Assembly: GCA_963921795.1 (NCBI GenBank)
Contig: OY997640.1
Location: 50,856,468 to 50,920,467, forward strand
Direction of reading: 5' to 3'
From: Nannobrachium achirus
Taxonomy: Eukaryota; Chordata; Actinopteri; Myctophiformes; Myctophidae
DNA length: 64,000 bases
Position numbers and translations under genes: made by a program. Shown here piece after piece: positions 1,577-62,981 of this stretch. The number at the start of each line of letters is the position of its first letter. Position 1 is the first letter of the stretch. The notes beneath the pieces are model-generated. The model had not been told where the DNA came from. It worked only from the letters and a program-made list of their open reading frames with translations, and ran no database searches.

Positions 1577-2296
1577 CGTGGAAAAAGTACTCAAATGTTT
1601 TACTTATGTAAAAGTATCAATACTGCAATATAGAAATACTCTGTTAAAAGTAAAAGTCATTGTACTTGAGTAAAAGTACAAAAGTATTGGCATCAAAATG
1701 TACTTAAAGGGGAAGACCACCCATTTTCAATATTGAACTATGTCATTAATATACCTTAGAGTTGTGTGGAAATAGAAAAAAAAAGTTCCCCCTCTTCTGT
1801 GTTGCCTGACAATGTGTGATGTCATCAAGTTGTACTTTACAATACAAACCCCAAAATCAATTCTCCAGTTCTAGGCAACACAGAAGAGGGGGAACTTTTT
1901 TTTTATTTCCACACAATTCGTCTAAGGTATATTAATGACATAGTTCAATATTGAAAATGGGTGGTCTCCCCCTTTAAAGTACCAAAGTAAAAGTACTCAT
2001 TAAGCAAAATCTCCCATTTCAAGTTAATTCAAATGTACAAACACCTTTTGAAAATAGCAGCTGTGAGCTTGTAGATCGGCTAAAGTGTTTTGTAATAATA
2101 ATGCAAATCTATAAAGTAACTTGTAACTAAAGTGTTCAAATAAATGAAGTAGAATAAAATTACAATATTTGAATTGGAGATGTAGTGGAGTAGAAGTAAA
2201 AGTATTGGAAATTGGAAATACTCAAGTAAAGTACAAATATCTCAAAACTGTACAGTACTTAAGTAAATGTACTTAGTTAGCCTACTTTACACCACT
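1577..2296 (+). repeat. Stepwise AGTACTTTTACT-type interspersed repeat, copy 1
   Basis: Begins GTGGAAAAAGTACTCAA and is full of AAGTACTTTTAC/AAAGTAAAAGTA words, a common teleost repeat. It matches, in reverse complement, 27826-28365, and a 5' fragment lies at 49757-49850. It is interrupted by a TTAA-flanked fold-back element (1708-1973) and contains one half of the hairpin module (2050-2084). Confidence 0.7.
1708..1973. mobile_element. TTAA-flanked inverted-repeat MITE (piggyBac-like)
   Basis: 266 bp bounded by TTAA at 1704-1707 and 1974-1977. Termini AGGGGAAGACCACCC and GGGTGGTCTCCCCCT are inverted. The arms pair for about 105 bp (TTTTCAATATTGAACTATG ... CATAGTTCAATATTGAAAA; AGTTCCCCCTCTTCTGTGTT ... 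AACACAGAAGAGGGGGAACT) around a loop of about 60 bp. No ORF. The related host repeat at 28.2 kb has the undisrupted single TTAA. Confidence 0.8.
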
Positions 2297-3569: not shown

Positions 3570-3705
3570 CGCCACATAGGCATGGTTGCCGCGGCGTCGC
3601 CGGTTCGATTCCCGATCTGGACGACCTTTGCCGCATGTCACTCCCCATCTCTCTCTCCCCATTTCCTGTCAGTCTACTGTATACTATCAATAAAGGCATA
3701 AAAGC
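3570..3705 (+). repeat. SINE 3' part
   Basis: 'GCCGGTTCGATTCCCGATCT' (box B), 'GACGACCTTTGCCGCATGTC', 'CCCCATTTCCTGTCAGTCTA' and the terminal 'TATCAATAAAGGCATAAAAG' match the copies at 30.3 and 49.6 kb. Confidence 0.7.
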
Positions 3706-4289
3706 CCCCCGCACGTGAGCTTATCCACAACTTTCCAACGTCCTATCGTGCATTGCGCAGAAAGTGTGCGGCGCCGAGTGTGATCTACAAGCTCACAACG
3801 GTTGCATCTGCGACGCGAAGTGAGCTTGTATGTCTGCTGTTAACCGTAAGTGTCCCGCAAATAATGCTACAGTAAATTCTCTCGGAAAGTCGGAAACAGG
3901 TGCATGGATAGAGCCACTATTTTTGACAATAATTAAATATAAATCAGGATTGAGTGAGTAATTGATGAAACATTGTCTTGATTATTATTATGTCAAACAC
4001 AATTTACTGGACCACCTAAAAACTTTACACAAACATTTCTTAATTAAGAATATGACTCATAGATCAAAAGTTTGCAATTGTCCCCAACCCAATGGAACAA
4101 GAGGATACAGATAATGTACAGCTTAGTCCCATTTTTACAAAACTGCACATCTGAACAGACCATTACAATCTCACAAAACATATTGTATACAAATCATTCC
4201 AGATTTAGGGATTAATGTTAATGACAAGAGACATGATATAAAATATGAATTCTGAGGCAGATTTTCTTTTCTGTTTTCTCAACATCAGT

Positions 4290-11690: not shown

Positions 11691-11729
11691 GTTGTTCATA
11701 GTATTACAAAACACTTTGAGTTTATTGAA

Positions 11730-11938
11730 TATCGTCGCTGTCGGGTGGAAACCTTGTACTGTATGCCCAAACTTTTTAAATTATTAATTATTTTTTCTTT
11801 ATTTTTCTGCTATTTTCACTACTTTCTTGCAACACTCTTGTATGATGACCTAGGGCATTCATTTACAGGGGGGAAAAAAAGAAAAAATTGAAAAAGTTTA
11901 AATATGGAGTCACTAGGTTTCTGCCTGACAGCAATTAT
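11730..11938. mobile_element. MITE, TGTCGGGTGGAAACC family, copy A (decayed)
   Basis: Left terminus TATCGTCGCTGTCGGGTGGA and right terminus AGGTTTCTGCCTGACAGCAA are inverted relative to each other. The inner landmark CTTGTATGATGA is shared with copy C at 40.9 kb. The central hairpin is mostly lost, only CTGCTATTTTCACTA remaining. Confidence 0.65.
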
Positions 11939-12188: not shown

Positions 12189-12696
12189 ATTGGAGTCTCA
12201 GATGGCCTCAGTCAAGACCAAATTAATCTGAACATGTAGGTAAAGGCTACAAAACCATTAAGAAAACAACGCTTTCTCCACAGCTGTGAGCTTGTATCTC
12301 AGCCTGTATATCTTTCGACTGAATAGTATTCACTGACCATCACATACTCCAGTGACAGAGAACAAATTGCACTTGAAGGATCCTGATGGCTCTCAGCTTT
12401 TGAAGTTCTCCTCGATTACTTATGTCAAAATGTCAAACCTCTTCATCCTCTTCCGCTAGCTGTCTGCCAGAGCGGTTACCGCCTCTCTTTTGCCTCGTTC
12501 TGCAGCCGCCCTGTCTCCTCTAAGCCTGTCTGCCCTCTGCTCCTCACGTCGGCTACAAGAGGTGTCATACTCTAGCATTAACAGACCCTTATCGATTCTC
12601 TCAAGGGACATTCTGTCATCCATCGTCAGTTAAACTCTAACCAGTCACACAGCAATAAGAGCAGCACTTTACTTGAAGTGCATTTGAAGCTATAGA
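12189..12696. other. Non-coding stretch after the orphan tail
   Basis: Higher GC than its surroundings. It contains a short hairpin-module fragment (CAGCTGTGAGCTTGTATCTC at 12281-12300). It could be the 3' UTR of the orphan tail, but no close AATAAA was noted. Confidence 0.3.
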
Positions 12697-13032
12697 CCAG
12701 GGCAGGGTCTTCAATGTTTTTTTCAGACCAAGGACCTCTATAGATGAGAGAGATGAAGCAGCCCCCCCCCCCCCCCCCCCACTAAATATTGAATACAATT
12801 GTGATGCACATTACTTTTTTCATAGATAAGTTCATAGACTTGTTTGACATACTGTACATTATCTTTACTATTAATATGTTGGATTCATGTTCATGTGTAT
12901 AACCCTCAATATTTAGTCAACTTGACCGTCGGCTCCATACTTGGTCTGCTGTTTTTCCCTCTACACCAACTCTCCGGAAATAGACGATCTACAAGCTCAC
13001 AATGCCCCGCAGACCCCCTGTTGAAGACCCAT
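12697..13032 (-). mobile_element. hAT-like MITE, AGGGTCTTCAA family, copy 1
   Basis: 336 bp with termini AGGGTCTTCAATG and TTGAAGACCC, flanked by identical 8-bp duplications GCTATAGA (12689-12696 and 13033-13040). A C-homopolymer (12763-12780) and half of the hairpin module (12979-13005) lie inside. Orientation is opposite to copies 2 and 3. Confidence 0.8.
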
Positions 13033-13653
13033 GCTATAGAGTAGACAATGAGGTCTTATTACAAGGACACACGTATATTAACATGTTTGCGTAATTGCAC
13101 CTCCTAATACTAGCTGCCACAAATACGCAACTCCCCTCCAGGGTAAATAACATGTTATTATATCAACTTGGGTTATACAGACTATAATGTGCACATAATG
13201 TGCCAACAATGTCATGTAATGCCTTATGGGCTCAGACTTTCAGCTATACACCAATGCCAATCCAGGGATATTTGGCCCCTGCTGTCCTTGCTCCCTGAGA
13301 ACGCAAGCATGCAGATAGAGAACATAGTGAGCCTGTGTGCACCATCTGAGCTGGGGCCCCCAGGCCCCCGTGTATCAATAATGCAGGCCACGGCCACACT
13401 GATTGTAGGAGACAACTGGTATTTAGAAGATGCCAACTCAAAAGCGCGCTCGCTCCCTCTGTCTCCGCTGCCCGTTAAGTCTGTCCCTTTAGATGTACGG
13501 AGAAAAGAAAAGAAAAACACTATAAGAACCACTCTGCTTTTCTGCGCTGCGGTTGGGATTTGATGATATGGATATGTTTTTGTGAGACACGCACGCACAC
13601 ATGCACATTCAGTACATAAAAGCAAAAACACGTATACTGATGCAAGCGTGTAT

Positions 13654-14050: not shown

Positions 14051-14264
14051 TGCTAAACCGTTTGTTTTGTATTTATCATTTTTAAAATGATTTAAAATAG
14101 TGAAAACAGACGATCTACAAGCAAATGAGGCGTTGTGCTTGTAGATCGGCTGTTTTCACTACTTTTGTGCGATGGCCATATGATGAAGCAGTGCTTTACT
14201 TTGCGAACAAATGTAGAAATTTGAAACTTGGAGATACGAGGTTTCTGCCCGACAGTGACGATAT
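14051..14264. mobile_element. MITE, TGTCGGGTGGAAACC family, copy B (5'-truncated)
   Basis: The inner part TTGTATTTATCATTTTTAAA and the right end GGTTTCTGCCCGACAGTGAC match copy C (40876-41144); the left terminus is missing. The central hairpin at 14099-14160 pairs GTGAAAAC..ACGATCTACAAGC with GCTTGTAGATCGGCTGTTTTCAC. A fragment of a second MITE (GTACATAGTGCTGCTTTAA, ends 14050) abuts the truncation. Confidence 0.7.
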
Positions 14265-14299
14265 ACTGCTTGAAATTATATTAATAAAATACAATAATA

Positions 14300-15920
14300 A
14301 CAACATTGAAAATATCAAATCGAATCAATTATGAAAAACATATATATTTTAAATTGTCAGCCTAAAAACGAAAAAAAGAAAGAAAAAAATCCATATTGTA
14401 CAAGTGAGCAGCGGTAATGATGAAATGGAAGTGTAAGGCCTGTTTCATACTTAGTTGCATGCCGGTATCGCGCATCAAAAAGCCGATCTGCAAGCTCTGT
14501 TTCACTGTGTAATCTGATTGGCTTTAAATAAATTCATATAGGCCTACTGTGAATTCAGTCCATGTTGTGTTATTATTATTATTAAACTTATTATTATTAT
14601 CCCTATTAAATGTTCTAAAATAGAACTTGCATGCTTAGTGAAATATCCAGGTTAGTCTTTTCTTCTTTCTTTTCATTCCCTAATAATTCACTAGAGGGTG
14701 CAAACATCAAGACTAAAAACTCCAAAGAAGACATAACATCATTGTACTTTATTTGTACTGATGCCTTTTACATCGGTTTCAGCTTTATCTATGACATATA
14801 GTGTGTACAGCATGAATTAATTTCCAAGTGAATAGATAATGTTGCATGCGGATGCTGGTTTTGCACGTCTTGTTGTAACTACAGTACCTTCGAAGCCAAT
14901 TTCCTTATGAATTATTTGACTCCCTATGCATTATTTGACTTGTGGCAAAATTGTTCATGCCAGAAAGTATTCAACGCTTTGAAAAGTTTTCATTTTGGAT
15001 GAGTAACATTCTCAAGTGGCAGGGGGTAAGAAAGGGTCTGTGCCAACGCATAGCATACTCTAGCAGAGTGTGCTTGCCGCTCAGAGAAGATCTCATTGGG
15101 GGGAAAGAAAGCGCGGAAAATAATTCAGTGCGGGATCCTTGGTCCTTTTTGATCAGTTGACTTTAGTGGTGTTTGTGTTGGCCTCATGTTGTTGATTAGT
15201 TAAGGGCAGATTAAAGAATCATAAAAAGCTGTTTCAAAAGCAGTCACTGCTTATATTTCTCTACAGTATAGGGAAACCCGGGCCTAATCCATTTTTCACC
15301 GATCTCTGCGTAATTAGATACACTGATGAATATTAACAATTACACCAAACATCTTATTTTATCCGTCGCCAGGCAAGAGAAGCCGCAAACTATTGGTGTG
15401 AATTCCTGCGATGCTCCTTGCCCAAAAGATCTGACAAGATCACCCAGAAGTATTGCTACGTCTCGCTCCCCGTGCTTTTTGCTCTGCCCCCCGAACCACC
15501 CCACCCCTAGCTCTCCTCTCCACGCCTGCATCATCCCTCCACCCCCACCTCCACCCCTTTATGTTTTTTTCTCCCCCCCCCCCCCCACTTGTTTGATATG
15601 TTTCTTTCCTTCCCACCAACCATATTCAAAGACTTATACAATATACATGCTCCATCTGGTCAGACTGGGTGAACTTAAATATACCTGTCAAGAGCAACTT
15701 AAAAGTTTTTTCTCCCGCAACCTCTTCTGGGTCTCGCTCAATTCACCAAGGCTTTAATTAAAAAGCAGCCCCAGTTCCAGGATGTGCTTCTAAATGAGGG
15801 GGTTTGCGCTGGCAGACGCAGTGCCGAGGTCCTGCAGAGGGACCCAGGCTTGTGGCTTTCATCACTTCCACTCTGCGGCTGTGAAGTTCCGGAGAGGCAT
15901 CTGTCTGACTTGAACTGGAA
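14300..15920. other. Intergenic, no supported gene
   Basis: A partial hairpin-module fragment (AAAAAGCCGATCTGCAAGCT at 14477-14496) and a C-rich homopolymer (15575-15588) are the only features noted. Confidence 0.5.
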
Positions 15921-22773: not shown

Positions 22774-22960
22774 AGTGGTTCTCAACCTTTTCAGGCCGCG
22801 ACCCCCAAAATAATCATATTTGAAGTGAACCCCCCACACCCTGACGAGCACTAAGAGTTGAGGCATAACATTTTGTATAACAGTTCTATTGTGAAAATAG
22901 GAGATGTACATGCTCACAACGCCTCGCAATATAAACATTTCTACCTCTAATACAGTATTG
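22774..22960. mobile_element. hAT-type repeat end (CAGTGGTTCTCAACC)
   Basis: CAGTGGTTCTCAACCTTTTC and GGCCGCGACCCCCAAAAT are the hallmark 5' end of a widespread vertebrate hAT-derived repeat. No matching opposite terminus was seen, so the copy is truncated. A partial hairpin module (GAAAATAGGAGATGTACATGCTCACAACGCC, split here as 22893-22923) follows within it. Confidence 0.65.
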
Positions 22961-24727: not shown

Positions 24728-25055
24728 CTACAAATGTGCCATTTCAAAACGTCCTGACCTGCCATTGGCAAGACAGTAGATTCTCAGGCGTTTTGCAGAA
24801 CATTGAGCTTGTAGATCAGCTATTTTTGCTAATTTTAAGACCTTCTCTGACTTCAAAGTCTGCTTTTCAATGGGAACGGAGTGGTTTCTTGACATTTGCG
24901 AGTTGTTGAATAAATAAGCTCCATTCTCCATAAAAAAATGAAAGACAAAACATGGAAAGAAACCTGTGGAAAAAATGCATTTGCAGGACATTTTCAGGAA
25001 AAGAGCAGTACATACCGAAGAGTTGAAACGGCACATCTGTATCATTCCTATGCTG

Positions 25056-25121
25056 GAAATAGCAGATCTACAAGCTCACAACCTGTGTGACAACACATTG
25101 TGGGCTTGTAGATCAGCTATT
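25056..25121. repeat. Hairpin module copy
   Basis: AAATAGCAGATCTACAAGCT pairs with GGCTTGTAGATCAGCTATTT around a short spacer. A lone right arm of the same module (TTGAGCTTGTAGATCAGCTA) is at 24803-24822. Confidence 0.75.
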
Positions 25122-26561
25122 TGGTGTAGACGGGGACAAAAGAATGGAAACAAAAAGTACTGTACAGAGCCGGGCCCGGTCAATTAAGAATTTGTTTACC
25201 AAGTATAGAGGACTTGATTGGTTAATGACATTTCAGATGTCAAGTGAAAAAAAATATATATATATATTTTAATGATAACTGTTGTGCAACTCAAAGCTTT
25301 ATCAATGGCAGCCCTAGCTTCGGTCTGGGAGAATGCTCTGTGTAAACAAGCACAGGAAATGATGATGATGATGAGCTGTACTCGTATATATTTTCGGGAA
25401 GTACATTTTCTTTTTTTTCTTTTTTGGCATTTTGAACCCGTTCAGTGTGCAACCAAAATATTTCACCATTTACGACACATCTGGGTGGCTGAGTCATTAC
25501 AGCGGCTGCCAGACCGTCTGTCATTTAGTCAAGGCACTGTGTGAATCTCCACATAATGCCATTTAACTAATTAAAAGGCCCGTTTCTCAAGCCGTCTGTG
25601 GTCAAACTGTCAGGGAGATTTCTATCCTGTGCTGTCACACAAGGGATAACACTGCATTTTGACATTCAGTAGAGGTTCCCGACACGCTACGCTGCGGGAG
25701 GGAAACCAAACCGTCAAAGCCATAATCTCTCCTCAGGCAATCATGACAATGAGGCAGTTGTACTTGTGAGTAAGAATGGACAATATAGATGTTCCCATTC
25801 ACTTGCGTATATCGAGCTGACACAATAAAAATCTGGTTCTCATATCATATGCTGGAATTTTGAGGGAAATGGACATCGTATGAAGTCTGGTTTTCATCAT
25901 TTGACTTTTTCTGTTGTCTTTCCAGATGGCACACATTGCTGACTTCTAATCCTTTTTGTCCTTCTGATTTCCCCACGGGATTTTGTTGCGCTGAGGTTTT
26001 GTTTTGCATAATCTGTGGACCTTTTTTCCTTGTTTGCTCACAGCCTTCGACCACATGTCATGTATTATTATTATTCCACAGTGTTAAATAGTGCCACATA
26101 TGCCTCAAAATGGCAAAAGAAATAATAATAATGGGGGGGGGGGGGGGACATTCTTTGAAACCATGCATGCAAGTTTGTTACACTTTCCCATTAATCTCTA
26201 TCATTCCGGGTGACCTAAACAGACCTCAAATACTTAGAAATGGAAACACACCCAGCACGCGAGAATACGGTGATTACAACAGCACAAGGCGGCCCACAGT
26301 TAAAAGCCCATATTTCCTTGTCTGAGAGGCTGGGTAGGCCTGCCCTTGTAAGCTTAGCTTGGCAGTGCCCATTTCCTCAGCTTTGATCCCACAGCACAGG
26401 AAACACCAACTGATACGAGAGGGCTAGTGTTTCTGCCCAGGGGCAGATCCAAATGGCTGATAACCACTTCCACGAAGGAGCCACCTTCAGCAAAAACACA
26501 AATTATAATTCAAGTAAATTGCTTTTTTTTGTTGCCTCCAACAGGAGGAATTTCTTCTTAA

Positions 26562-27386
26562 AGGAGTCATCCAGACCAAAACACATATAGGGTTAAATCT
26601 GCCTTTTATCATACCCCTAATAACCCCTGCAAACCTGCTTTAGTTGATTTTTTTCATAGCTGCCCCTGTTGCTAGATCTCGGCTGCCCCTGTTGCTAGAT
26701 TTCGCGGGCTCTCTCATAACTAACACTGTGGATTGTCCTTAGGCTAGTGCGGTTATTTCTTTAGCTTCAAAGTTAGTATTTTTTATTGGATTGTGTTTAC
26801 ACAACGTCCTGAGACCAACCAAACCGCTGTTTTGACCTCACAGGCACCCTTACTTGTCAAACAGACCCCTCCCTCCCCTCCCTTTCTAGCCTCTCCTCTC
26901 CCTGCTCTGGTGCAGAGCAGAAGCCGTTTGACAAGTAAGGGTGCCTGTGAGGTCAAAACAGCGGTTTGGTTGGTCTCAGGACGTTGTGTAAACACAATCC
27001 AATAAAAATACTAACTTTGAAGCTAAAGAAATAACTGCACTAGCCTAAGGACAATCCACTGTGTTAGTTATGAGAGAGCCCGCGAAATCTAGCAACAGGG
27101 GCAGCCGAAATCTAGCAACAGGGGCAGCTATGAAAACTAGACCAGGTCAACCTGGTTGTGCCAGACCCCCTGTCTGTCATCATCATTTATGACATCATGC
27201 CTTTTGTAGGCATGTCATCATCATGTCATCATCATATATACCCTTTATATAGAAAACCCGGACCGACATTTGCTTATGTAGGCCTACCCATTTCATGGGT
27301 CTGGCAAAAATCAACTAAAGCAGGTATGAAGGGGTATGATAAAAGGCAGATTTAACCCTATATGTGTTTTGGTCTGGATGACTCCT
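26562..27386. mobile_element. Large TTAA-flanked fold-back element
   Basis: 825 bp between TTAA 26558-26561 and TTAA 27387-27390. Arms of more than 300 bp are nearly perfect reverse complements (AGGAGTCATCCAGACCAAAA ... TTTTGGTCTGGATGACTCCT; TTGTTGACCTC-type inner arms meet at a GC-rich spacer, 26865-26925). The right arm is interrupted at about 27139-27305 by a separate insertion. Because of the symmetry both strands encode the same 70-codon frame starting MFTQRPETNQT; this is a by-product of the palindrome, not evidence of a gene. Confidence 0.8.
27139..27305. mobile_element. Nested insertion in the fold-back arm
   Basis: The left arm reads AGTTGATTTTTTTCATAGCT without a break, but the mirrored right arm is split between ATGAAAA and AAAATCAACT by about 167 bp. 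The insert begins CTAGACCAGGTCAACC and ends CATGGGTCTGGC; it has GTCATCATCAT repeats inside. Confidence 0.65.
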
Positions 27387-27825: not shown

Positions 27826-28365
27826 TGCAGTGTAAAGTACTTAATACGTACTAATACTTCCGTACTATTTTGAGGTATAAATACTTAACTTGAGTATTTC
27901 CAATTTCCAATACTTTTACTTCTACTCCACTACATTTCAGATCCAAATATTCTACTTTTACTCCACTACATTTATTTGAACACTTTAGTTACTAGTTACT
28001 TTCTGGACTTTGCTTATTGTAACAAAACATACATTAAACCACTTCAGCCCTATATACATTTCCACCATTTGAAAATAGCCGATTTACAAGCTCATAGTGC
28101 ACTGCAATATGACGCATTGTAAGCTTGCAGATTTGCTATTTTCAAAAGATGTTTGTCCATTTGAAAACTTGAAATGGGACATTGTGCATAATGAGTACTT
28201 TTGGTACTTTAAGTACATTTTGATGGCAATACTTCTGTACTTTTACTCAAGTACATTTTTAATTCCAGACTTTTACTTGTAACAGAGTATTTCTACATTG
28301 CTGTATTGATACTTTTACTCACTAGTAAAACATTTGAGTGCTTTTTCCACCACTGTCTATGTGTT
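27826..28365 (-). repeat. Stepwise AGTACTTTTACT-type repeat, copy 2, with hairpin module
   Basis: Reverse complement of the 1577-2296 copy, ending TTTTTCCACCACTG. It retains the intact target site (TACTTTAAGTACATTTTGAT at about 28205-28224) that carries the MITE in copy 1. The hairpin module at 28068-28147 pairs TTTGAAAATAG with CTATTTTCAAA. Confidence 0.75.
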
Positions 28366-30264: not shown

Positions 30265-30395
30265 TTTATGACAGCCTGACAGCGTGTTGCGGTTTCGAAT
30301 ACCGTTCCTGACGACCTTTGCTGTGTGTCACTCCCTGTCTCTCTCCCCATTTCTTGTCAGTCTACTGTCTCATCAATAAAGGCAAAATAAATCTT
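30265..30395 (+). repeat. SINE copy
   Basis: AGCCTGACAGCGTGTTGCGG, TTTCGAATACC (degenerate box B), GACGACCTTTGCTGTGTGTC, CTTGTCAGTCTACTGTC and AATAAAGGCAAAATAAA match the 49.6 kb copy. Confidence 0.7.
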
Positions 30396-32571: not shown

Positions 32572-33037
32572 CAACAAGGGTCTTCAAAGGGGGTCCGGGA
32601 CCCCTAGGGGCTCCTCAGAGTTACTACAGGGGGTCCTCCAAATCTTTGTGTGACAGAAACCTTTTCTCCTTTTTTATATAAACCACTTGAACCATATTCT
32701 GAGAACTTTGGCCAAAAATATCTACAAAAATCTACAAGCTCACAACGCCTCACGCTGCGAGCCGCTGTGAGCTTGTAGATCGGCTATTTTCTGCAAAGAG
32801 GTTTGGTGTAGAGGAGATAAAGAGTAGACCAAGTACAGAGTGAAAGGTCAAGTTTATGAAGTATTGACGGTTCAAGTGGTTAAATATCTGAAAACACAAA
32901 TTGACATGAATCCAAAATACACTGATAATTGTGCCGTCAAACGATGAAACTATATGGTATCTATGGGTTATGGGGGTCCCTGCTTCATCTCTCTCTCGAC
33001 TAAGGGGTCCTTGGCCTGAAAACATTGAAGAGCCCTG
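32572..33037 (+). mobile_element. hAT-like MITE, AGGGTCTTCAA family, copy 2
   Basis: Ends AAGGGTCTTCAAAG and TTGAAGAGCCCTG; flanks TTTTAGCG (32564-32571) and TTTTAGTG (33038-33045) form an 8-bp duplication with one mismatch. Internally, 32681-32880 is bounded by AACCACTTGAACC / GGTTCAAGTGGTT and carries a hairpin module (32712-32795). It closely matches copy 3 at 55.3 kb. Confidence 0.8.
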
Positions 33038-33489
33038 TTTTAGTGTGTTTAGTTTGGAGTCTGAGAATGTCTTTAAAACAATACACCACACTGCCACTCC
33101 GTCATGGAGCAATAATAATAAGATAATTGCCTTTAATGAATGAGGCCCCTCTGGCTATATTTGACTTTGTCTTTTCCCCATTGTAACTGTACGATGGAAA
33201 CAGGACCCTGTAACGGCAGCGTTAGCTACAGCAACGTTGCCCTCAGAAGTGTATGACCCAATCCCAGTGAAAGTTGATTAACTCTTGTAAATGTTAAGCA
33301 CTCCTAATAAAACTCAGAAATGCAAACTCATTTCCAGTGGTTTGATGGGGCGATGTAACGAAGCTGGGCTAATGGTCCATCTGTTTGACATCAAAGCAGA
33401 ATGCAATACTCTTTGCAATCAGTGAGAGAGAGTGTTCTTAAGAGGGATACAACGAGAAAAGTCTGGGGAGTGTGTACGCGTTCCGCGTG

Positions 33490-35595: not shown

Positions 35596-37121
35596 GAGGT
35601 TCTGAATTGGCATCCAATACTTCCTGAAGAGCCCGGCAGTGTATGATCTGCGCTGTGATTGGCCGGTAGTGTATCATGTGTGTATGATCTGCAATGTGAT
35701 TGGCCATCGTATACACAACGTATACGGATGATGCAAATCCCGCCCCTGTCAAGGCTAAGTAGAAAACATATAAAGAAAAGGCTTTTGGGGTAGAAATTAA
35801 CGGAGTGGGGGTTCTAAAACTTTAGCGATTTAATAGTTAGGACAATTTTAAGATATGTTTTATAAAAAAAGTTACATAGTATAACTTTAAATATACAAAT
35901 TACAAAGTGACTGAAATATTTAATTTCATACTTAAATAAAGAATAGTATTTTTTTCAGAATGTATGAAAAAAAAATCAACATGGAAATTATGAGTCATGA
36001 CCATTATGACTATTATACAAAATAATTGTGATTATCTTGAATAATTGAAATCAGATGATTATGTAATAATTGTGACAGGCCTATCACAAACATCCCAGTC
36101 CTTCTTTAAAAAAATCCTTCTTCAAAGGCCACATGCACTTACAGTACAAACAGTTCTAAGCAGATGGCAGCGATTCAACAACAACATATCCTCAAACATT
36201 TTCCTTTTTGAACCACTATCGCCATTTTATCCACCAGCAATCCAGAACCAGGGAACATCTGGCCTTCTACCTGCAAAGACACACTGGCCTCTCCACAGGG
36301 GTGTCACAAGGGGGGGAGTGGGACTGAGTTACTAGGGGGGGCCTTAATTATTATATACTTTAGCTATTGAAAAATAGCTGATATACAAGCTCACATTGCG
36401 GCACCGAGTGCGTAATAATGCGTTCCCAGTCTAAATGGGTTAAACCCCCTCCTCCCATTCATGGGGGCCCGCATTGAATCCTTGTACCCAGGGCCCAGAA
36501 TTTGGTCCGACACCCCTGCTCTCCACAATATCTCTCTCTGTGCGTTTCGCCTCCGATGGTTTGTTATCTTTGGTGTTGGACACTTGGCCCCCGTGCAGCT
36601 GTATTTACAAGTAGCATGCTAGGTCCAAATTGATCACAGATGGCTCTCGTCGTACCTGAGATGAGGGCGTACGTCCAACTCAGCAGTCTGCAGCTCAAAA
36701 ACCCTGTTTGTTTTCCCCTTGAAATTCCATCTGGGGTTTTAATGAACGGTGGCTTTGATAAGCCTGCCACACAAAATGTATTGGATTAAATTATCCTGCA
36801 CTCTGTTTGTATAATCAGCGATGGTTATCAGCGATGTCAGGACAGACACAATTTCACACAGCTTAACGGCTTTCAGAAGGACAACATTACACGTTTGCAA
36901 AGACAACAGTGGCAATGAGAGATTTCATATCTCAGGTCAACAGCGCAAGGATCACAAATGTTACAAGTGGTGTGGTGTGTGTGCACGCGCGTGGTTGCGC
37001 ACGTGCGTCTGTGTGTGTGGGAGTGTGTTTGTGTGTGAGGAGAGGTGAAACTGGACTTCGGGGACTCCAAGACAATTGACTGTTAACCACCCAGCATGCT
37101 CATTCTGGGGGGAACACTGGC

Positions 37122-37275
37122 CAAAAATAGCTGATCTACAAGTACGAGCTAATCTACAGACCAGTCTACACTTAGCTTGTAGCCAATCTAGAAATCTTCA
37201 AGCCATACAAGCTCACAACGCGTTGCAACGTGAGCTTGTAGATAGGCATGTAGATGAGCTTGTAGCTTGTAGATT
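37122..37275. repeat. Rearranged cluster of hairpin-module arms
   Basis: At least five arm copies lie in 150 bp: CCAAAAATAGCTGATCTACA, CTAATCTACAGACC, CATACAAGCTCACAACGCG, TTGCAACGTGAGCTTGTAGA and two further GAGCTTGTAG words. It looks like a hairpin that underwent internal duplication. Confidence 0.7.
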
Positions 37276-40875: not shown

Positions 40876-41144
40876 TATCGTTGTTGTCGGGTGGAAACCT
40901 TGTATGTCCAAAAAGTTCCTTTTGTATTTATCATTTTAAAAATGATTTAACATAGTGAAAATAGTCGATCTACAAGCACACAACGCCTCGCACCGTGAGC
41001 CGCGAGGCGTTGTGTGCTTGTAGATCTGCTATTTTCACTAGTTCTGTGCGACAGTCTTGTATGATGAAACAGGGCTTTACTTTATGAAAAAACATACAAA
41101 TTTGAAACTTGTAGATACAAGTCTCTGCCCGACAGTGACGATAT
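40876..41144. mobile_element. MITE, TGTCGGGTGGAAACC family, copy C (complete)
   Basis: Left end TATCGTTGTTGTCGGGTGGA and right end CTGCCCGACAGTGACGATA are inverted repeats. The centre (40953-41040) is an almost perfect hairpin: TAGTGAAAATAG..CGATCTACAAGC..CACAACGCCTCGC on the left and GCGAGGCGTTGTG..GCTTGTAGATC..CTATTTTCACTA on the right, with a loop of about 10 nt. 269 bp, non-coding. Confidence 0.8.
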
Positions 41145-41492
41145 ACAAGGTTTATTTTTCCAAGGTGCAGTTAACTATAGTTCCTTCTTTCACTTTATAC
41201 ATGAAGTTTCACTGCACCCGGTGACTATGAATGCTTTATAAAAATAAATGTTTATCTACGGTAGTGTCATACAAGATCCAGTGACAGGATCCAAAAGGTG
41301 GCATGAGAAATGCTTTTTGTGTAAAATGGCTGATGGAGATGGAGCCTGTAAAGCCAAGGTCAGAGTGTACAGCTGGTACCAGTGAAATGTATGTTAGAAA
41401 TGAATGGTAAAAGATACGGATTAGTCTTAAGAAGTGCAATGAACTGAGGCTTCTCAAAGGATATCCAATTCTTCAGTCAATTAGGCCTACTC

Positions 41493-43699: not shown

Positions 43700-45432
43700 C
43701 ATATACACTCACACACCACTTGAGCACACGCCCCCCACTAACGCACCACTTGCAAACTCTCCACAGGAAACTGTGAGCCATAATGCGAAGGCACCTCCGA
43801 GCAGACGGGTGCGTTGCTCAAACCAAGAGGGATACGCTGCGACTTTGATAGTGCGTTAATTACTCATGTGATGTGATACAGATGTCTGGGGGCTTCAGCC
43901 GAAAGTTCGCCTGACGCTTTCCAAGGGGGCCAGGCAGACATTTTAGGAGCGGTAGGTGAAAACCAAGCATATATATTATTCATGCCTAGATCAGTTTGCG
44001 TGCTGTCACGGATCCCAGTGGTGCGGTGCTGATGCTAAACTGTGATGCTACTTGAAGGGCTGGCTGCTAAATACTTTTTTGTGTACTCGATGACAGCCGG
44101 GACTTTGAACAGGAACAACTCTTGGCTATACGAGTTTGCCTGTGCTGTGATGTGATATGAGGAAAAGAGCTCCAAACTATTCCTCTAGATCTGACAGCCG
44201 CTTCAAAACTTTTCTTTACCTGCCTTGCTATGGAATGAAATTAGTCTCATTTTTGCCCCTCACTAGCTCCCACCTACTGAGGCACATTGAAGTTGCTGTA
44301 AATAATATTCTTTGGTTAAAACACACACAAAAAAACGTTACATCTGTATAATATGATAGTAACCGTGCTCTTTAATTAATAAATGTCATTTTCAGGTGGG
44401 CTACAAATTTCACCCAATTAGGCAAGAGAACCCCACAAAGACCACTTATCAGCTTGTGTTCCAGACAGTTCCAATGTTGTCTGCTCATTTGTTTGTTTCA
44501 TCACTTACACTTTCACTTATCTATACTGAATCCTGTATTAGTTCTCTCTCCTGATTGGGTTAAATTGGTATCCTGACCTGAAAATAACATTTATTTTTAC
44601 TAAAGAGCTGGAGAGAAGACCCCTTTTTCTGAACAAATAATATAGAGCTATTTAACACTTATTTTACCAAAGCAATATAACTAACAGTACCTTTAAGTAA
44701 AGGTATAAATATCTGTATGTTTATATTCCTGTAATTATCATCATACTCATATTTTAATATCATTGCATTATACTATTCAGAGGTGGTCAAAATGAAACAT
44801 TTGCAAACAATGTATTCAATGATTCGAATTCTAGACACTATTGCACAAGTGACTGCAGGACAGATGTAAACTGATTCCCTCTTGCTGAAGTGACTCTTTG
44901 TTTTGTAACCGCCAGTCTGAGCCTTTCTAAATCAGAAACAGGGGAATGTGTGCTGAGGAGACCGCTCGCTGACGAAAAGCCACGCTAAGGGGGGCACACT
45001 GTCCAAACAAGAAAAACTGAAAAAAAGAACAAGAAAAAACAAAGTCTGGCTCGGTCGTTACAAACCCTTGTTAACTTCCAGGAATGATTGAGAGCAAATA
45101 GAGATGACTGATGTACCATTATGTTGATGCCTACCTCCCCCCTTACCTGACTGTAACCAGTCTTGGCATTTCCCATCTGTGCCCCCTTGGCAAAACCTTT
45201 TTGAAGTCTTAAGGAAGTTGTTAGACTTCCACAAAGCATTTGGAGAGGGGGGACAGCAGCACTGTCAAACTTTCTTCTAACTGACATAGTCAGGCTTGGC
45301 TAGGTTTCAAGCGGAGAAAACAATGCAGAGACAGTTAGTGGGAATGCAAAACGGTGTTGATGTTGCTTTGCTAAAGTTTGCTGATGTCTGAAAACAACCT
45401 AATTTCCTCCTCTTTCCCTGTTCTCACCACAG
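43700..45432. other. Sequence immediately upstream of the first coding exon of ednra
   Basis: AT-rich, repeat-poor and without an obvious CpG island, TATA-initiator pair or exon. Presumably it is the 3' part of the intron that separates a non-coding exon from the first coding exon. Confidence 0.4.
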
Positions 45433-45492
45433 ATTTACTGGGGCATTGGTTCTTCCATTTTCACAGCCCTGTCAGTGAAATCAAAGTGTGGA
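45433..45492 (+). other. ednra: 5' UTR portion of the first coding exon of ednra
   Basis: A textbook acceptor (pyrimidine-rich CTCCTCTTTCCCTGTTCTCACCACAG) ends at 45432. The next 60 nt up to the first ATG contain no other ATG. This implies that the coding start lies in a second or later exon and that a non-coding exon plus promoter lie upstream, as in mammalian EDNRA, whose first exon is non-coding. That upstream exon was not located. Confidence 0.7.
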
Positions 45493-62098
<16,606 letters not shown>

Positions 62099-62811: not shown

Positions 62812-62981
62812 AACCACTTAAACCCTCTAAACTAATTCTAAGTTGACTTTACTTGGTCCGATCTTTTTTCCTCTCTATACCAAATCTCTTTGTCTAAAAT
62901 AACCGAGCTACGAGCTTGTTCTGTTCTGTTATTTTTGCAGACTGTTCCCCCCAGAATAGGGATGCTAGGTTTCAAGTGGTT
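62812..62981. mobile_element. Standalone copy of the AACCACTTGAACC element with hairpin module
   Basis: Ends AACCACTTAAACC and GGTTTCAAGTGGTT are inverted. The interior keeps TACTTGGTC..CTCTATACCAAA and a degraded hairpin (62893-62940: AAATAACCGAGCTACGAGCT). The same unit occurs inside hAT copies 2 and 3. Confidence 0.7.

Follow-up and report, generated by a model that had tools for sequence, protein, structure and literature searches.

How one palindromic sequence came to lie within repeat elements whose ends are otherwise different is the question raised by a hairpin at positions 40953–41040 of a 64-kb window (the whole stretch of 64,000 nucleotides analysed here) from the myctophid fish Nannobrachium achirus (contig OY997640.1, positions 50,856,468–50,920,467). 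An earlier inspection of the letters, hereafter the sequence-only reading, had listed an inverted repeat at 18 sites in this window, and its recurrence is confirmed. With up to three mismatches, the 20-mer arm has 19 matches in the window against 0.00 expected, and CTCACAACGCCTCGC has 11 against 0.75 expected, a number that none of 100 shuffles reached. A profile search returned 27 arm matches at an expectation value (E) below 1 and none in the reversed window; this search is partly circular because the profile was made from 16 arms of the window itself. It matched 16 of the 18 listed sites at E ≤ 0.014; site 60121 is weak (E 0.84), and site 62893 was seen only by the three-mismatch scan. The 40953–41040 hairpin has a folding energy of −66.5 kcal/mol (z −15.8). 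Seven of the eight module copies that were folded are more stable than every shuffle, forming the single stable hairpin that a microRNA precursor needs, and for the eighth (37195–37260) 3 of 200 shuffles were as stable. Chance falls far short of explaining the hairpin and its relatives, which are genuine. Within the window, the copies at 12994, 32760 and 55437 have one set of flanks, those at 14130 and 40997 a second, and those at 2074 and 28107 a third, which bears out the proposal that the hairpin sits inside repeat families with different termini. One host, the AACCACTTGAACC element, had been called hAT-like; it appears instead to be piggyBac-like because it is bounded by TTAA on both sides (55358–55564).

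The module is abundant throughout the genome. Across 1.66 Gb in 564 contigs, the exact 20-mer occurs at least 47,546 times (23,814 + 23,732), and the reversed control gave 0. Ten blind-chosen 10-kb stretches (L019–L028, the only loci chosen in this way; 91.3 kb scanned) contain 32 sites, or about one per 2.9 kb, unevenly distributed, with ten sites in one stretch and none in another. Extrapolation yields a rough figure of more than half a million module sites in the genome. The remaining loci, L009–L018 and L029–L088 (the latter comprising 60 loci on contig 1), were picked for carrying the exact 20-mer. The sample for flank comparison consisted of 172 sites (93 paired hairpins and 79 lone arms) from the window and L009–L088. 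On contig C1, exact arm matches about 8 kb apart in both orientations at 2.32–2.60 Mb suggest a module-bearing tandem segmental duplication.

The 172 sites fell into 48 flank clusters, of which 26 hold at least two copies and 22 are singletons. These clusters are not independent events, since some represent segmental duplicates or the opposite ends of a single element, and the clustering splits family F36 and joins A3 with H17. Visual inspection clearly separates at least eight hosts: the A group, B, C, the S group, L9, F36, H17 and the context of 3772–3844. In host A, an outer CAGGGGTCTTCAA..GAAGACCCCTG element encloses an inner one flanked by TTAA (CCACTTGAACC..GGTTCAAGTGG), S begins with CAGTGGTTCTCAACC, C is the AGTACTTTTACT repeat, B is a TGTCGGG element, and H17 appears by eye as a long palindromic element centred on the module. 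A single ancestral miniature inverted-repeat transposable element (MITE) would have left one common set of flanks and no boundary at the hairpin edge, an outcome that the sequence-only reading had set against its own proposal. The 48 clusters contradict this outcome, and the simple explanation of the widespread shared core by one such ancestor is refuted. Together with the genome-wide 20-mer count, they place the module at many independent genome positions, one of the marks of a MITE.

The boundaries of the shared sequence are sharp. Among the matches listed, cross-family alignments mostly end a few bases from the edge of a 73-bp unit, AAAAATAG..CTATTTTT, and some extend by about 15 bp; in a comparison of A with S, for example, L014:5129–5200 and L010:4616–4687 are 93% identical over 72 bp. 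For 29 hand-picked hairpins, the module identity is 0.92 for 26 pairs within families and 0.85 for 380 pairs between families, while the corresponding values for the 60-bp flanks are 0.83 and 0.72, the latter being near the level of a forced alignment. The module identities are star-like when the grouping of variants is compared with the relationships of the flanks. Two elements, L014:2331–2693 (F36) and L013:4112–4369 (A3), carry two modules in inverted order, one close to either end, so that the module is now part of their terminal inverted repeats. At L013:22–614, a small tandem array derived from a MITE end is made up of copies about 31 bp apart that match the right terminus of the outer A element.

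The diversity of hosts also bears on an explanation by common descent, in which one old hairpin-bearing element had its flanks replaced stepwise through nested insertion, deletion and one-sided exchange at the base of the hairpin. By eye, the module has a constant position close to one end in A, A2, A3 and several window copies, and one flank was exchanged at or near the stem base in three copies (L026:8382, L034:148 and L051:413). Furthermore, S and M16 are related and both carry the module, and F36 and A have a few left-edge letters in common (AACTTTAGC). We nevertheless consider this history unlikely, because the hosts differ in termini and target signatures (the TTAA-flanked inner element, the CAGTGGTTCTCAACC element and the AGTACTTTTACT repeat) and most flank clusters are unlinked at the clustering threshold used.

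Sequence changes within the stem are frequently paired. In alignment A1, 26 hairpins of 73 nt align without gaps and their arms pair in 91.1% of cells, giving the module the terminal inverted repeats by which MITEs are recognised. The constant length is partly the result of selection, because the A1 hairpins were chosen at exactly 73 nt; the printed hairpins span 40 to 115, and in some copies the inner stem is shortened, down to 40 bp. Two-sided changes occur in 17 pairs, compared with 8.5 ± 1.7 after shuffling (0/500), a control that keeps the relatedness of the copies in, and the covariation score is 0.205 against 0.111 (0/500 shuffles). Most of the outer 28 columns are conserved, with strong conservation in most of columns 2–28, and the inner stem varies pairwise. 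Family-specific two-sided changes are observed in B (CACACAAC and AACAG), S (ACATGC) and L9 (CTCAAAACG). The arms are not fully corrected, since a C/A mismatch at column 10/64 persists in 31 of the 48 hairpins having C or A on both arms (81 hairpins were examined, and the other 33 have T or could not be scored). The stable stem, its conserved columns and the two-sided changes might suggest that the hairpin was kept or spread for a function as RNA or extruded DNA, such as a small-RNA precursor or a protein binding site. We regard this as very unlikely: a function would explain the conservation and not by itself the spread, some copies have the shortened inner stem described above, and no Rfam family matches the window at its gathering score.

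The flanks just outside the module are inverted-symmetric (77 versus 32.9 ± 8.4 after permutation, 0/20,000). In this comparison, L9 is represented by a copy that scores low and is flanked by a tandem piece of the module; the family representatives were hand-picked, and some differ between the tests on flank symmetry. No fixed-length target duplication was found outside the 73-bp unit, where direct repeats equal those in permuted pairs (68 versus 68.3 ± 4.9), and such a duplication was rejected. The TA just inside the module edge is inconsistent between families. The inverted symmetry and the lack of target duplications support the earlier suggestion that the module occupies AT-rich palindromic sites. 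In many C copies, the left flank holds an inverted module end (GGCTATTT/GAAAATAGCC), as would be expected after a snap-back switch. At L068:354–482, a 37-bp module arm occurs twice in direct tandem before a full hairpin, which is a possible record of stepwise template switching.

The sequence-only reading had also proposed a search for empty sites around the hairpin, and stem-less copies were found in families A, S, B and C. A search in S with at most 12 bp between AAAA and TTTT gave 316 matches in all, some counted on both strands; the exact single-TA form accounts for 24 of the 100 matches listed (22 distinct places), and the neighbouring GC and AT forms for 3 and 2 of them, respectively. 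The corresponding A search yielded the exact TA form in 25 of all 90 matches, together with 9 more that differ in the A or T run, and 3 GC and 1 AT neighbours. Twenty of the 22 listed S places were retrieved, and both near host flanks are recognisable by eye in 18 of them, some with insertions or deletions; L091 lacks the right flank and L100 the left. The same holds for 12 of 12 copies retrieved from the 25 in A, again with some insertions or deletions. L090, L101 and L105 (S) have a common right flank and look like a subfamily spreading without the stem.

With up to 30 bp between the flanks, S gave 574 matches, and among the 100 listed the single-TA form is found in 4, joins at GATC and other short repeats being at least as common. 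In B, the left stem base has CA rather than TA at 5 of the 8 sites sampled, and among 100 listed of 167 stem-less matches there are 2 TA forms, 11 GC joins and 13 1-bp joins (CTG/CAG). In C, the left flank of many copies terminates in GGCTATTT, eight letters that also form the end of the module. The C search gave 209 stem-less matches; among the 100 listed, 27 have a length of 50, which fits deletion at the 8-bp GGCTATTT repeat, and 2 have the length of 60 that the TA form would give. Letters were visible for six C rows, one of which has length 50 and is a near match to the expected product. The C product is thus probably a deletion between the 8-bp direct repeats. No module-free ancestor of C was found, a centre of the C repeat from other fish giving 0 matches. 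Because B and C differ in this way from the TA form of A and S, the kind of stem-less product seems to depend on which direct repeat borders the stable stem, like replication slippage across a hairpin. Filled and stem-less copies are interspersed in unresolved trees. The stem-less copies look like losses rather than pre-insertion sites. Two further insertion signatures were rejected: a TTCT duplication suspected from one stem-less S copy (L028) is unsupported by the later TA copies, and the AAAATTTT form of a Spy-like blunt insertion is rare (1 of 90 in A and 2 of 100 small-gap matches listed in S).

These joins bear on whether the module transposes by itself, as a miniature palindrome of about 59 bp (GCCGATC..GATCGGC) that would insert, with duplication of TA, solely at the TA in the middle of a palindrome around AAAATATTTT, usually within another MITE. 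Its putative autonomous partner would be a transposon with ends GCCGATCTACAAGCTCACAACGC. Tc1/mariner-type elements duplicate TA in this way and have a single TA at the empty site, and on this mark the families are divided, the TA form leading among small-gap copies in A and S and other forms in B and C. The exact single-TA form is the commonest class with small gaps (≤12) in S and A, where neighbouring products at equally short repeats are rare; the retrieved TA copies are host copies, and L090, L101 and L105 look like an empty-form subfamily. On the other side, the TA form drops to just 4 of the 100 wider-gap S matches listed, in which GATC joins are at least as common, B is dominated by GC or 1-bp joins, and C by the 8-bp repeat class. 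Duplications of different length in different families do not fit one element, and self-transposition would require pre-existing palindromes of one shared centre in many hosts. The wider-gap S count and families B and C weaken the TA form as proof of transposition, and we hold this explanation to be possible but doubtful.

The account that we tentatively put forward, as plausible rather than probable, is that the palindromic core was copied between palindromes by template switching and then amplified by host MITEs. During DNA replication, the core would pass from palindrome to palindrome through template switching or strand exchange at the AT-rich AAAATA/TATTTT stem base, the former being the step that we suppose for the transfer. 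The same switching process may have extended or corrected the symmetric outer arms. Transposition of a host MITE would subsequently multiply the module passively, with amplification presumably provided by the transposases of the hosts. Template switching accounts for the sharp edges, the paired changes, the symmetric outer arms, the inverted GGCTATTT/GAAAATAGCC and the exchanged flanks. We also count in its favour that the stem-less products vary with the direct repeats present locally, and that the palindromic flanks lack a duplication. The sequence-only reading had offered either a mobile module or an exchange of cores; the many flank contexts and the palindromic sites agree with this pair of ideas, but neither branch is proved and the stem-less copies look like losses. 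More broadly, the module may conceivably be a mobile palindrome that uses the palindromes of other transposons as landing or exchange sites, although we rate this as questionable: a hyperparasite of MITEs, moving from hairpin to hairpin without a fixed target duplication and reaching about half a million sites within the genome of a single fish.

It is usual to regard each MITE family as a closed lineage with a core of its own, whereas here one core is found in at least eight hosts and 26 multi-copy clusters. If self-movement or hairpin exchange is true, non-coding DNA could spread without a transposase of its own, and repeat annotation by core sequence would be misleading. The module also provides a natural experiment on how hairpins are deleted, with one stem present in a great many copies whose flanking direct repeats differ.

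Titles and the beginnings of abstracts in the openly licensed literature revealed no paper about this hairpin, and scans of viral and bacterial contigs gave nothing. The Angel elements of teleosts are short, with inverted repeats, very high copy number and no coding capacity. The module resembles them in these features and in its AT-rich edges, and differs in lying inside other MITEs of different type, with no consistent target duplication and with flanks that are often inverted-symmetric. The REP/BIME palindromes of bacteria are moved by RAYT transposases. They are likewise short mobile hairpins with a stem mismatch and very many copies; they are bacterial and their transposase is known, whereas no such enzyme was searched for here. 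Spy transposons (PHIS superfamily) insert within AAATTT without duplication, according to two reports (PMC4482050, PMC11304231), and the AAAA and TTTT flanks of the module recall this AAA/TTT target. In contrast to Spy as described there, the AAAATTTT form of the module is rarer than the TA form, and the flank symmetry extends beyond AAATTT. Template switching can create, maintain and correct hairpin stems, as stated in one study (PMC8794818). The module shares with those hairpins the two-sided changes and the stem correction, and inverted copies at the stem edge would fit; the RNA-gene hairpins of that account evolve in place, whereas the module is one sequence in many contexts. The hsa-mir-548 microRNA genes are summarised as MITE-derived, from Made1 (PMC1784062), a comparable short palindromic element able to form a precursor, a role that is putative for the module.

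Table 1. Copies of the hairpin module and their host elements in the window
Positions	Strand	Feature	Remarks
2056..2082	-	Trimmed module, second C copy	C copy at 1661-2292
3772..3844		Hairpin module without outer AAAATAGC on left	Context common to L010:7032 and L019:8193
11728..11893	+	Third B copy, without stem	Right edge CTGCTATTTTCACTA retained
12283..12303	-	Weak lone arm, E 0.014	Profile search
12976..13012	+	Lone module arm	In deleted copy of A composite (12702-13033)
14098..14161		Shortened hairpin module, second B copy	B homology 14065-14266
14477..14497	+	Weak lone arm, E 0.0017	Profile search
22891..22927	+	Lone arm in family S	CAGTGGTTCTCAACC hAT-like element
24803..24828	-	Lone arm	Profile search
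25054..25124		Hairpin module	Flank context without match elsewhere in sample
28068..28146		Hairpin module, family C	AGTACTTTTACT repeat, 27830-28255
32719..32791		Hairpin module, family A, left arm end rearranged	Outer homology 32575-33051
36370..36403	+	Lone arm in family F36	
37122..37254		Arm and rearranged hairpin	Left flank A-type
40880..41146	+	Host element B, TGTCGGGTGGAAACC ... inverted GGGCAGAGAC end	Outer bounds approximate
40953..41040		Intact hairpin module, family B, symmetric outer arms TAGTG/CACTA	Fold; arms 40957-40991 and 41036-41002
55270..55729	+	Outer element around A	Bounds from match to 32575-33051
55358..55564	+	Inner host element A, TTAA/CCACTAGAACCC ... GGTTCAAGTGG/TTAA	Probably piggyBac-like, from TTAA flanks
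55396..55479		Intact hairpin module, family A	
57126..57152	+	Module remnant in A-type element	
60121..60160	+	Weak module remnant, E 0.84	A-type flanks by eye
62893..62915	+	Module remnant, 3 mismatches	A-type flanks

Several other features of the window were recorded. A 283-bp self-palindrome (1700–1982, arms 82%) is nested within the C repeat, and an inverted repeat with 133-bp arms that are 98% complementary (26651–26783 and 27004–27136, spacing 220 bp) is possibly a young foldback element. Three copies of one direct repeat (3582–3700, 30272–30387 and 49579–49695; families D14 and D15) belong to what we take to be a tRNA-derived repeat resembling short interspersed elements. ARAGORN placed a tRNA-Thr at 1429–1507, and very long CA/GT, GACA and GTCA microsatellites occur at many places. 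Open frames at 45403–46014 and 60341–60940 read like what are presumably endothelin receptor exons. Along with the teleost character of the repeats they point to a bony fish, and they would place the hairpins of the window in introns or near a gene.
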